Source: Shinella sp. H4-D48 (GTDB taxonomy: Bacteria > Pseudomonadota > Alphaproteobacteria > Rhizobiales > Rhizobiaceae). From it: a DNA stretch of 64,000 bases. Below, piece by piece: positions 11,300 through 21,750 of this stretch. Positions within the stretch are counted from its first letter, which is position 1. Each line of letters opens with the position of its first letter. Under the pieces are notes generated by a model, which worked only from the letters and a program-made list of their open reading frames with translations, ran no database searches and was not told the DNA's origin. Position numbers and translations under genes: made by a program. Location: contig NZ_CP093337.1 of NCBI RefSeq assembly GCF_022637395.1, positions 2,092,001 to 2,156,000 on the forward strand, in the 5' to 3' direction.

Positions 11300-11349
11300 T
11301 TGAGACTCATGAACTTACGCTGTAATGTCGCGATGTTCAACTTTTGTTC
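11300..11349 (+). promoter_or_regulatory. dinB promoter with LexA (SOS) box
   Basis: TTGAGA at 11300-11305 and TAATGT at 11323-11328 form a promoter with a 17-base spacer. Directly after the -10 lies GTTC-AACTTTT-GTTC at 11335-11349, a perfect alphaproteobacterial SOS box (GTTC-N7-GTTC). LexA bound there would cover the transcription start. The box overlaps a theoretical upstream start codon, which is why dinB is started downstream. Confidence 0.85.
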
Positions 11350-11354
11350 CTGAC

Positions 11355-12701
11355 ATGCACTCCGCTGCCACGCGATTACCGGGTTTTTGCCGTGACTGCC
11401 TCTCCGGGCAGACCGCCGACCTGCGCCGTTGTCGTGCCTGCGGCAGCCCGCGCCTCGTCTACCACACTGAACTCGATGACCTGACCCTCGCCCATATCGA
11501 CTGCGACGCGTTCTATGCGGCAATTGAAAAGCGCGATAATCCCGAACTGGCGGATCGGCCCGTCATTATCGGTGGCGGCAAGCGCGGCGTGGTGTCGACG
11601 GCCTGTTACGTCGCGCGCATTCATGGCGTGCGATCGGCCATGCCGATGTTCAAGGCGCTGGAAGCCTGCCCGGACGCGGTGGTGATCCGGCCCGACATGG
11701 AAAAGTATGTGCGCGTCGGCCGGCAGATACGCACCATGATGCAGGAACTGACGCCGCTGGTGCAACCGCTTTCGATCGACGAAGCCTTCCTGGAGCTCAA
11801 AGGCACCGAGCGGCTGCACCACGACACCCCTGCCCGCGTGCTTGCCCGCTTCGCGCAGCGGGTCGAGAAGGAGGTGGGCATTACCATCTCCATCGGCCTG
11901 TCCTATTGCAAGTTTCTGGCCAAGGTCGCCTCCGACCTCAACAAGCCGCGCGGCTTTTCCGTCATCGGCCAGACGGAAGCGCTCGCCTTCCTGAAGGACA
12001 AGCCTGTTCGCATCATATGGGGCGTCGGCAAGGCTTTCGCGCAGACGCTGGAAAGCGACGGTATCCGCACGGTCGGCCAGCTTCAGACCATGGAGGAAAC
12101 CGACCTGATGCGCCGCTACGGCATTATGGGCAAACGCCTGTTCAACCTCTCGCGCGGGCAGGACGACCGGGAAGTCCACGCCAATGAGGCGGCCAAGAGC
12201 GTATCGGCCGAAACCACGTTCTTCGACGATATCTCACGCTATGACGACCTTGTCGCGCATCTGCGCCAGCTCAGCGAAAAGGTCGCGACCCGCCTGCGCA
12301 AATCACAGATCGCCGGCCATACCGTGGTGCTCAAGCTCAAGACTGCCGATTTCAAGAGCCGGACGCGCAACCGCAAGCTCGAGGACCCCACCATGCTGGC
12401 CGACCGGATTTTCCGCACCGGCATCGAGCTTCTGCGCAAGGAAGCCGACGGCACGAAGTACCGGCTGATCGGCATCGGCGTCAGCGACCTCACGGATTCC
12501 AGCCGCGCCGACCCGCCCGATCTTGTCGATCCCGCAGCCAGCCGCCGCGCCGCCGCCGAAGCGGCAATGAACACGCTGCGCGACAAGTTCGGCAAGGCAA
12601 GCGTTGAGACCGGCTACACGTTCGGCCGTTCCGGCCCTGAGCGCACTCACGGAAAAGTGAGCCTGAAAGCCGTCGGGAAACTCGAAGACCCAAGCGAATA
12701 A
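11355..12701 (+). CDS. dinB: DNA polymerase IV (Y family)
   Basis: 448-residue error-prone translesion polymerase. Catalytic residues are Asp49 in [12 protein letters not shown] and Asp142-Glu143 in SIDEAFLEL; HhH and little-finger regions follow. The first 30 residues carry Cys12/15 and Cys26/29 (FCRDC and CRACG), a zinc-ribbon-like extension also seen, as far as I recall, in other rhizobial DinB proteins but not in E. coli DinB. The ATG at 11355 is preferred to 11325 because the latter lies upstream of the SOS box. No strong ribosome site is seen for either. SOS control is predicted from the upstream box. Confidence 0.93.
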
Positions 12702-15296: not shown

Positions 15297-18791
<3,495 letters not shown>

Positions 18792-18919
18792 CTGCTTCGT
18801 CCTTTCAATCAGACAGGAAGCTTAAGCGGATTCGCACCAGCCTCGTCCAGACGGTTCTTGCCCTTGCACCCGATATCCACGCGGCAAGGCGCATTCAGTT
18901 GGGGGATGCGACGAAAATG

Positions 18920-19006
18920 TCAGATGCCGAAGAGAATGACGGAGAAGCTGGCGACGAACATTGCCATGGTGGTGAATGCGGCGAGATCGCGAAGAAAGTC
19001 GGTCAT
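18920..19006 (-). CDS. SOS-controlled 28-aa membrane peptide (SidA-like candidate)
   Basis: A 28-codon gene beginning MTDFLRDLAAFTTMAM and ending SVILFGI, then TGA. A near-ideal ribosome site (AAAGGGAGA) lies before the ATG. A short charged head (Asp, Arg, Asp) is followed by about 20 hydrophobic residues, predicting one inner-membrane span with almost no C-terminal tail. It has its own promoter with a perfect SOS box. Caulobacter SidA, known from the literature, is a 29-aa, SOS-induced inner-membrane inhibitor of cell division acting on FtsW/FtsN; size, topology and regulation match, but homology is not shown here. Alternatives are a toxin-like peptide or a leader for dnaE. Confidence 0.72.
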   Translation of the reverse strand: MTDFLRDLAAFTTMAMFVASFSVILFGI

Positions 19007-19033
19007 GGTGTCTCCCTTTCCGTTTATGTTTTT

Positions 19034-19062
19034 ATTTTGTTCCACTCTTGTTCTCATGTCAA
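19034..19062 (-). promoter_or_regulatory. promoter with LexA (SOS) box for the 28-aa peptide gene
   Basis: On the minus strand TTGACA (19057-19062) is followed after 17 bases by CAAAAT (19034-19039). Between them lies GAAC-AAGAGTG-GAAC, which on the plus strand reads GTTC-CACTCTT-GTTC (19039-19053), a perfect alphaproteobacterial SOS box filling the -35/-10 spacer. Bound LexA would block RNA polymerase directly. The leader is about 20 bases. The adjacent TTTTCCACA (about 19066-19074) differs from a DnaA box by one base. Confidence 0.85.
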
Positions 19063-19134
19063 CAGTTTTCCACAGCCCCTCTGGACCGTCGCTTCCAAGC
19101 GCAATACGGTCTGGCCGATCAACGGAGAATTGAA

Positions 19135-19713
19135 ATGAAATCGTTTGCCGCCGCGCTGCTGTTTTCCACCACCGTTCTGCCCGCGGGCGCCATCGCCGCC
19201 GACTTTCCGGCAGAGCGCATCATTGCCATGGCGAGCGGTGATTGGGACAAGGACGGGACTGCGGATCTTGCCGTTATCGCGACGCCGGAAAACGACGGCG
19301 ACGACAACGGACTTTATGTCTATCTCGCCAAACCGAACGAGAACCGGCTGAAACTCGCTCTTTCACTGCCCAACACGGTCTGGGGGAACCTCAGCCTGTT
19401 CGGTCAGGAGCCCGAACTTGTCGCGCTCGCCAACGGCTCCTTCACGCTGACGACGAAGAATGAAGCCGTCGGCCGCGAGCGCTGGCGCCAGTCGCTCACC
19501 ATCGCCTATCGGAATTTCGATTTCATCGTGGCGGGCTACACCTTCTCATCCTACGACACGCTGAACCCGGACGGCGCGCAGGAATGCGACCTGAACGTTC
19601 TGACCGGCAAGGGAAAGAGCAGCGGGCGGCCGGTCGCCGGCCAAGCGCAGTTCGTTCTGCTGAAGGACTGGAAGGACGATGTCGGCCGCTCGATCTGCGG
19701 TCTCGACAACTGA
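19135..19713 (+). CDS. exported hypothetical protein with a Ca-binding-like repeat
   Basis: 192 residues with a signal peptide (MKSFAAALLFSTTVLPAGAIAA). Residues about 35-48 read GDWDKDGTADLAVI, the DxDxDG pattern of FG-GAP/VCBS-type calcium-binding blades, but only one clear copy is visible. Two cysteines near the C-terminus (QECDL, SICGL) may form a disulphide. Function unknown. CGGAGAA precedes the ATG at 19135; longer in-frame reading would run through the SOS promoter of the divergent gene. Ends 34 bases from the convergent lolD. Confidence 0.78.
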   Translation: MKSFAAALLFSTTVLPAGAIAADFPAERIIAMASGDWDKDGTADLAVIATPENDGDDNGLYVYLAKPNENRLKLALSLPNTVWGNLSLFGQEPELVALANGSFTLTTKNEAVGRERWRQSLTIAYRNFDFIVAGYTFSSYDTLNPDGAQECDLNVLTGKGKSSGRPVAGQAQFVLLKDWKDDVGRSICGLDN

Positions 19714-19747
19714 TCTTGGAGCGTGCCACACGCGCCGGAGATGAGCC

Positions 19748-20434
19748 TCAGGCGAGTTCGCGCACGAGGCCGTCTTCGATCGTCACGCGACGATCCATCA
19801 GGCCCGCAAGCTCATGGTTGTGCGTGGCGATCATCGCCGCAAGGCCGGACTGGCGGGCAAGGGCCTCCAGCGCCTCGAAGACGTAGCCTGCGGTTTCCGG
19901 GTCGAGATTGCCGGTGGGCTCGTCGGCAAGCAGCAGAAGCGGCGCATTGGCCACGGCGCGGGCAATCGCCACGCGCTGCTGTTCGCCACCCGACAGCTCG
20001 GAGGGACGATGGTCGGCGCGGTGGCCGATGCGCATGTAATCGAGCAGCTGTGCTGCGCGCTCGCGCGCTTCCGCCTTGGTAAGGCCGGAGATCAGCTGCG
20101 GCATCATGATGTTTTCGAGCGCCGTGAATTCCGGCAGCAGGTGGTGGAACTGGTAGACGAAGCCGATCTCGCCGCGACGAATGGCCGTGCGTTCGTCATC
20201 GCCGAGCGTCGCGCAGGAATGGCCGTTGACGAGGACCTCGCCCGCATCGGGCTTTTCCAGCAGGCCGGCTATGTGCAGCAGCGTCGATTTGCCGGTTCCT
20301 GACGGAGCGACCAGCGCGACCGTCTCGCCGCTTCTCAGCGTGAAATCGGCGCCGCGCAAGATCGACAGCGTGGTTTCGCCCTGGCCATAGTGCCGTTCGA
20401 TGCCCTTCAGTTCCAAAGCGACGCGCGCATTCAT
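19748..20434 (-). CDS. lolD: lipoprotein-releasing ABC transporter, ATP-binding subunit
   Basis: 228 residues; powers extraction of outer-membrane lipoproteins from the inner membrane. Walker [10 protein letters not shown] (43-51), Q-loop [10 protein letters not shown], signature [14 protein letters not shown], Walker [14 protein letters not shown] and H-loop ATHNHEL are all intact. [13 protein letters not shown] after the Q-loop is characteristic of LolD. It follows the permease gene by 11 bases, in the order proS-lolC-lolD. Confidence 0.95.
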
Positions 20435-20445
20435 GCGTTCTGTTC

Positions 20446-21750
20446 CTATTCGTACCGAAGGGCCTGGACGGGATCGAGCTTGGAGGCGCGCCAGGCGGGA
20501 AAGATCGTCGCGAGGAACGACAGCGCCAGAGCCATGACCACCACCGATACCGTTTCGCCGGCATTCATGTCGGCCGGCAGCTGGCTCAGGAAGTAGAGTT
20601 CCGGATTGAACAGTGTCGTGCCCGATATCCAGGAGAAGAACTGGCGGATGGATTCAACGTTCAGGCAGACGATGACGCCGAGCAGCACGCCGGCGAACGT
20701 GCCGACGGTGCCGATGGCCGCGCCCGTCATGAAGAAGATACGCATGATCGCGCCCGATGTCGCCCCCATGGTGCGCAGGATCGCGATGTCGCTCCCCTTG
20801 TCCTTCACCAGCATGATCAGGCCGGAAATGATGTTGAGCGCCGCGACAAGCACGATGAGCGTCAGGATCATGAACATGACGTTTCGCTCGACCTCGAGCG
20901 CCGAGAAGAAGGTCTTGTTGCGCTGGCGCCAGTCTGTGATGAAGATCTGTCGCTCCGCCGCCGCCTCAAGCGGCTGACGAAGCTCGTCGACCGCATCCGG
21001 GTTGGACACGAACAACTCGATCGACTGCACGATGCCTTCGGCATTGAAATAGAGCTGCGCCTCTTCAAGTGGCATGTAGATGATCGACGCATCGTATTCC
21101 GACATGCCGATCTCGAAGATGGCCGAGACCGTATAGGTCTTCACGCGCGGGTTGACGCCAAGCGGCGTCACGTCCCCTTCCGGCGCGACGAGCGTGATCT
21201 GCCCGCCTGCGCTGAGGCCCAGCTGCTCGGCCATGCGCGCACCGATCGCCACGCCGCCGGTGGCAAAGCCGACGAGATCACCTTCCTTGATATGATCGGA
21301 GACCGCCTTCATCTTGGCCAGGTCTTCGGGGCGCACGCCGCGCACCAGCGCGCCAGTGCCGGCCCCTGCCGTGCCCGAGGCCAGTGTCTGGCCCTCGACG
21401 AGCGGTATCGCCATGGTGACACCAGCAACTTTCGAAAGCCGCTCGGCCAGCTGGCCGTAATTGGTCAGCGGCGTATCGATGGGCTGAACGATCATATGGC
21501 CGTTGATGCCGAGGATGCGGGAGATCAGCTCCGTGCGGAAACCATTCATGACGGCCATGACGATGATGAGCGTCGCGACGCCCAGCATGATGCCGATGAA
21601 GGAAAACCCGGCGATGACCGAGATGAAGGCTTCCTTGCGCCGGGAGCGCAGGTAGCGCCAGGCGACCATCCGCTCGAAAGCGGAAAACGGGCGGTTCTTC
21701 TTGAAGGCCTGTGCCTCGGATGCAGATGCACCGCTCGCTGCGTCAGCCAT
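20446..21750 (-). CDS. lolC: lipoprotein-releasing ABC transporter, permease subunit
   Basis: 434 residues of the LolC/LolE family. The N-terminal cytoplasmic [30 protein letters not shown] motif is diagnostic (first span about 40-65); a large periplasmic domain is followed by three spans (about 295-325, 340-375, 395-420). Only one permease gene is present, so the transporter is probably a homodimer with LolD, as in bacteria with LolF-type permeases; lolC versus lolE naming is therefore conventional. It starts 36 bases after proS. Confidence 0.93.

Follow-up and report, generated by a model that had tools for sequence, protein, structure and literature searches.

Between dnaE1 and a lolD-like transporter gene, the genome of Shinella sp. 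H4-D48 carries a gene of 28 codons that is, in our judgement, very likely a divergent homologue of Caulobacter sidA, transcribed from a LexA-type promoter and encoding an SOS division checkpoint peptide as proposed in a preliminary description of this DNA. The window analysed is a stretch of 64,000 nt, and coordinates given below refer to it. Judging from the sequence of the gene and its relatives, the product is very probably a membrane peptide that pauses division upon DNA damage. The features of the locus are:

15297..18791, minus strand: dnaE1, DNA polymerase III alpha, the positional anchor (TIGR00594, 1207 bits)
18792..18919, minus strand: spacer of 128 nt between the peptide gene and dnaE1, no terminator-like site found
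18920..19006, minus strand: gene of the 28-aa putative SidA-type single-span membrane peptide, MTDFLRDLAAFTTMAMFVASFSVILFGI (read directly, and conserved in relatives)
19011..19019, minus strand: ribosome-binding site AAAGGGAGA (read directly; near-identical in the same-genus loci)
19034..19039, minus strand: -10 element CAAAAT (sigma-70-type promoter scan)
19039..19053, minus strand: predicted LexA (SOS) box GAAC-AAGAGTG-GAAC, that is GAACAAGAGTGGAAC (GTTCCACTCTTGTTC on the plus strand), overlapping the promoter
19057..19062, minus strand: -35 element TTGACA (sigma-70-type promoter scan)
19748..20434, minus strand: lolD-like ABC transporter ATPase, the upstream flank (annotated in S. meliloti as ABC transporter ATP-binding protein; lolD is the name we assume for it)
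20446..21750, minus strand: lolC-like permease (annotated in S. meliloti as lipoprotein-releasing ABC transporter permease subunit)

The 28-codon frame with its strong ribosome site had been described accurately to the base: it starts with an ATG at 19006 and ends with a TGA at 18920. Like SidA, with its approximately 29 residues and one hydrophobic span, the 28-aa product is predicted to have a single such span; in the peptide of locus L196, which differs from it by one residue, the best 17-residue stretch has a hydropathy of 2.00. Scans of the window peptide against Pfam and NCBIfam gave no match, nor did a Pfam scan of the peptides of four relatives. The ORF is a real gene, since it is kept in all 21 same-genus genomes (our own included), is under purifying selection, and loses its conservation abruptly past the stop codon. 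With a threshold of E<=1, 24 of the 41 relatives searched had a match to the peptide, these 21 among them, and dnaE adjoins it in all 24 loci. The exact GAAC-N7-GAAC box begins 46-50 nt before the ATG in 22 of these loci and has one mismatch in the other two (L022 and L032); close relatives thus retain both the frame and the SOS box, as would be expected of the gene first described. Differences at codon positions 1, 2 and 3 amount to 574, 76 and 1165 (pairwise counts over the 21 same-genus loci, not tree-corrected), and the dN/dS-like ratio over the ORF, also pairwise, is 0.20, which indicates purifying selection and is the synonymous-site pattern of a coding sequence. In the same 21 loci the mean column conservation is 0.94 within the ORF versus 0.45 past the stop, and the alternative frames are interrupted by stops in 21 (frame 1) and 17 (frame 2) of the 21 rows.

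Scanning positions 18700-19200 for sigma-70-type promoters returned a single site, the peptide's own, with a score of 10/12 (mean of 0.1 in shuffles). A perfect SOS box had been placed inside the spacer between its -35 and -10 elements; the box is indeed exact, and the placement needs only the trivial correction that one base is shared with the -10 element. At the sequence level, therefore, a predicted LexA box covers the promoter. The LexA motif of Caulobacter is GTTCN7GTTC (PMC12700426), the same pattern as GAAC-N7-GAAC read on the opposite strand. By itself the box was rejected as evidence, its numbers not exceeding chance in the window (2 found, 1.68 expected) or genome-wide (142, versus 84 for the pattern read backwards); it gains weight because it is conserved at the loci of relatives. 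We took 20 of the 142 genome boxes, hand-picked for A/T-rich spacers, and named the gene for three of them (lexA, ssb, and a radical SAM gene). The same class of box lies upstream of ssb and of lexA, the latter a partial ORF matching TIGR00498 (E 6e-16, 58.6 bits, below the full-length cut-off). The putative DNA-repair radical SAM gene (L349, G000:C1:1077590-1078600) begins 19 nt downstream of the first base of its GAACATATAGTGAAC box; this partial ORF matches TIGR03916 below the full-length cut-off, and probably is a further SOS gene of the Shinella genome. Among the 89 boxes of the dnaE-upstream regions surveyed below, 52 have a TTGAC that starts 7-12 nt ahead of them, and 37 have none within 16 nt. 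From the overlap of box and promoter we infer LexA control of the peptide gene.

SidA is a 29-aa, SOS-induced division inhibitor of the inner membrane that interacts with FtsW (PMC4211646). In C. crescentus, sidA is CCNA_02004 (PMC10769358) and dnaE is CC1926 (PMC1839093). We found a 29-aa peptide just upstream of dnaE in all seven Caulobacter-titled genomes (L207, L208, L210, L211, L212, L215, and L217), the boxes at these loci being exact or one mismatch away; the L208 peptide, the one tested, scores 72.4 bits with the SidA model NF033228 (div_inhib_SidA), for which the cut-off is 35. Since Caulobacter SidA occupies the same place, dnaE is a positional anchor, and the thematic weight first ascribed to this neighbour turns out to have been understated. 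The Brevundimonas version falls below the NF033228 cut-off (26.1 versus 35 bits), and the window peptide has no match at the curated 35 bits, so it is not filed as SidA; the whole Shinella genome yields 0 matches to this model, and 1 of 14 control genomes exceeds its cut-off.

We built an HMM from 56 hand-picked peptides of Rhizobiales (22 belonging to the window's family and 34 to others), a few of their start codons being chosen by eye. With eight Caulobacterales peptides, also hand-picked (four Caulobacter, two Phenylobacterium, and two Brevundimonas), it scored 6.1-14.9 bits; of 5,000 composition-matched shuffles, 0-10 scored at least as high for seven of the eight peptides, and 113 did so for the eighth. 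Aligning the order-wide profile with the SidA side by hhalign gave a probability of 91.6% (P 8.4e-7), and the Rhizobiaceae-only profile a weaker 72.8% (P 3.2e-5). An HMM from Rhizobiaceae alone scored the Caulobacterales peptides at 4.0-11.2 bits, below the 18.0 reached by its best shuffles (whose 95th percentile is 4.4), so the bridge to SidA runs through the other Rhizobiales families. Homology beyond composition is thus found with the order-wide profile, and more weakly with Rhizobiaceae alone. The rhizobial and Caulobacterales peptides align without gaps, beginning with the initiator Met for seven Caulobacterales peptides (the eighth, that of L206, is one residue longer), and share R6-[DE]7-x-x-[AS]10-[FL]11-x-[ST]13-x-x-x-F17, with T13 in the window. 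Of the 56 peptides from Rhizobiales, all 56 have D/E at position 7, 55 have F at position 17, and 51 have A at position 10; their conservation has helical periodicity (p 0.010).

The window peptide therefore resembles SidA in length (28 versus 29 aa), in having one hydrophobic span, in its place directly upstream of dnaE with GAAC-N7-GAAC-type boxes before the gene, and in the gap-free motif; it differs in scoring below NF033228 and in its C-terminal half, which is unlike that of SidA. The earlier suggestion of a rhizobial analogue or homologue of SidA is supported by the common locus, the box type, and the order-wide profile homology, even with the window peptide unmatched by NF033228. We best read these comparisons as indicating a divergent SidA-type homologue at the same chromosomal position, outside the reach of NF033228, that most likely works like SidA.

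A survey of dnaE-upstream regions used dnaE as its anchor instead of the peptide, so that the search was not limited to expected peptides. It covered 181 regions: 23 from named genomes, 89 from a class search (29 loci, of which three belong to the window's own order, and 60 of the remaining 84 matches), and 69 from an order search (29 loci and 40 of the other 159 matches, chosen to cover families). Two regions shortened by contig ends, L241 (247 bases) and L248 (200 bases), are counted. The exact box occurs in 76 of the 181 regions (2.05 in shuffles; 1 for the backwards pattern), and is followed 18-95 nt on by a membrane ORF of 24-48 aa in 70 (mean 0.05 and maximum 1 in shuffles; 0 for the backwards pattern). 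By set, box and peptide together were found in 15/23 named, 14/89 class, and 41/69 order regions; 75 class and 28 order regions had no such combination, some of them lacking only the exact box. The opposite-strand pattern GTTC-N7-GTTC occurs in 22 of the 181 regions, 11 with a qualifying ORF, and altered spacers gave 7 regions (5 with ORF) for N6, 3 (0) for N8, and 4 (2) for N9; these may in part be the same regions. A chance origin of the dnaE-box-peptide arrangement is rejected by the shuffles and the backwards pattern; the other-strand, N6, and N9 controls are not empty. With the box not required, the Rhizobiales HMM at 12 bits or more recognised 18/23 named, 9/89 class, and 47/69 order regions, the order count being partly circular (many of its peptides are training data) and the class and Caulobacterales counts not. 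On the antisense strand it reached this threshold in 1 of the 181 regions (24.1; the next was 5.2), which we read as a real inverted homologue: it comes from L304, the one locus with homologue-like ORFs on the strand opposite to dnaE. L304 belongs to f11, a family of the order in which four other loci (L291, L296, L303, and L305) have a longer ORF whose C-terminal end is a SidA-like segment (e.g. VRDVAALGALVLFGTML); in three of them the segment is preceded by an exact SOS box. This longer ORF is apparently an extended version of the peptide.

The distribution of the peptide gene across relatives is patchy. A profile of 14 peptides found matches in 174 of 394 family genomes and none in the other 220 (E<=0.01). 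At E<=0.1 it matched 35 of 297 genomes of the order, several of these weak matches lying away from dnaE. Among 75 loci (L009-L083, a few places being included twice), 65 have peptide and dnaE together; of the remaining ten, L060 has dnaE and a peptide missed by our script, L074, L077, and L078 have weak ORFs without dnaE, and the rest gave neither. Evidently the gene is not universal, since four genomes of one genus of the family (L294, L295, L299, and L301) have neither the exact box nor such a peptide. A lolC/lolD neighbour lies within the locus in 22 of 44 large peptide-bearing loci, and so is less fixed than dnaE. TIGR00594 has a second match in the genome (525 bits, contig 2), and some of the plasmid sequences that match this one best carry the annotation error-prone DNA polymerase. 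A mobile origin of the peptide gene is unsupported: tblastn found no match in phages, and its five matches in a plasmid collection all sit in records of 3.5-4.6 Mb, the size of chromosomes. Three such plasmid-titled records carrying the peptide (CP090106.1, NZ_CP069303.1, and NZ_CP104135.1) look like chromosomes deposited under plasmid names; in CP090106.1 the peptide has annotated proS-lol-dnaE surroundings.

In Sinorhizobium meliloti Ak57 the orthologue MADFVRDLAAFASMSLFIVSISVIALGL (28 aa, 57% identical) lies between dnaE and a lolD-like gene, where TTGAC is followed by two overlapping boxes; it is the only ORF of at least 20 aa wholly on the sense strand in the box-to-dnaE interval. The Ak57 record annotates both neighbours and nothing between them (its gene table may be incomplete), which would explain why the gene was missed. 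Ribosome profiling of S. meliloti found a translated sORF25 in the 5'-UTR of dnaE1, and some 5'-UTR sORFs were suggested as possible uORFs (PMC10117765); SOS and LexA occur nowhere in the main text of that report. Given its position, the same as that of the window peptide gene, sORF25 is likely to be the 28-aa orthologue.

We propose the following working for the Shinella gene. LexA bound on GAAC-N7-GAAC between the -35 and -10 elements would block the promoter until, upon DNA damage, RecA triggers LexA cleavage; the strong ribosome site should then allow a burst of the 28-aa peptide, which would insert in the inner membrane as one helix. Its conserved face (R6/D7, A10, S/T13, F17, and S20) may dock on a membrane protein of the complex that builds the septal wall, the likeliest partner being FtsW with FtsI/FtsN, and would keep this partner inactive until repair is completed. 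This is best read as an old alphaproteobacterial SOS division checkpoint, so far known from the Caulobacter branch.

Other functions were weighed as well. The peptide could be a leader or uORF for the tuning of dnaE1 expression, in which case the act of translating 28 codons would matter and their product would not. The 128-nt gap without a terminator-like site is compatible with this, as is the placement of sORF25 in the dnaE1 5'-UTR, where some sORFs are seen as possible uORFs (PMC10117765). A mere leader fits poorly with a dN/dS-like ratio of 0.20 across the ORF, an order-wide conservation of residues with helical periodicity, homology to an effector, SidA, and a homologue-like ORF on the strand opposite to dnaE in L304, and we consider this improbable. 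The least probable alternative, in our view, is that the box serves only dnaE1, for SOS induction of the replicase, with the peptide as passenger. The two genes are close and co-oriented, and no terminator-like site was found between them, which would permit it, whereas the ORF is better conserved than its flanks, the box start keeps its distance of 46-50 nt from the ATG in the 22 exact-box loci, and the peptide is retained in many families.

A peptide of this kind might instead be an SOS-induced toxin that depolarises the membrane, as TisB and DinQ do, slowing growth and favouring persistence. Type I toxins of the TisB/DinQ kind have an antisense RNA antitoxin adjoining their gene. Positions 17800-20500 have no Rfam match above threshold (a mir-245 match at E 0.72, with 20.4 bits against a gathering score of 70, was taken as chance), and the strong ribosome site and the lack of a second promoter in 18700-19200, where only the sigma-70 type was scanned for, give no sign of an antisense brake. 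The peptide is of the same size class as such toxins, and like them has one hydrophobic span and a promoter of SOS type: DinQ is toxic, SOS-regulated, and crosses the membrane once (PMC3567139), and TisB depolarises the inner membrane (PMC8145889). That the peptide aligns with SidA without gaps, and shares its locus, argues for the division inhibitor, and we rate the toxin as slightly less probable than the leader peptide.

A division checkpoint would place the peptide beside several known inhibitors, to which we liken it by description only. YneA, SosA, DivS, and ChiZ, the SOS division inhibitors of Gram-positive bacteria, are work-alikes, being damage-induced small membrane proteins: YneA interacts with FtsW (PMC13396833), SosA is an SOS division inhibitor (PMC6851548), and yneA, divS, chiZ, and sidA were called unrelated genes (PMC4211646). 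DidA of Caulobacter, likened by description as well, is likewise induced by damage and inhibits division at the FtsW/FtsI/FtsN complex, and differs in being SOS-independent and driven by DriD (PMC4211646). Among the open-access literature matches listed, no title or beginning of an abstract names an SOS division inhibitor of rhizobia or SidA outside Caulobacter.

The sequence comparisons suggest that the dnaE1 locus of alphaproteobacteria houses a peptide family of which SidA, hitherto of Caulobacter, is one branch. A broader reading is held only tentatively, with somewhat more doubt than belief: this family would be an old SOS checkpoint that alphaproteobacteria have kept at dnaE1, SidA being one of its branches, with lineage versions including that of f11, and the rhizobial SOS transcript may enter dnaE1. 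If true, division arrest would be tied to the supply of the replicative polymerase. The peptide gene would explain the LexA box before dnaE1, and its locus is a ready candidate for the division stop in damaged rhizobia and in many Rhizobiales families; the diverged peptides offer a natural set for mapping how a helix of approximately 28 residues might silence the divisome.

Three further observations concern the sequences around the locus. The window's other exact LexA-type box (11335-11349) overlaps an ORF of 458 aa (11325-12701, plus strand) at its 5' end; we presume this ORF to resemble DNA polymerase IV, DinB. Between the peptide gene and dnaE1 (18820-18880, minus strand) a stretch GGGTGCAA...AAGAACCGTCTGGACGAG recurs in several same-genus loci, and possibly is dnaE1's own promoter or control site. 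Just upstream of the -35 element (19066-19075), a CTGTGGAAA-like motif recurs in most same-genus loci; its version in L013, TGTGGATAA, presumably resembles a DnaA box, and through such a motif the SOS promoter could also come under replication control.
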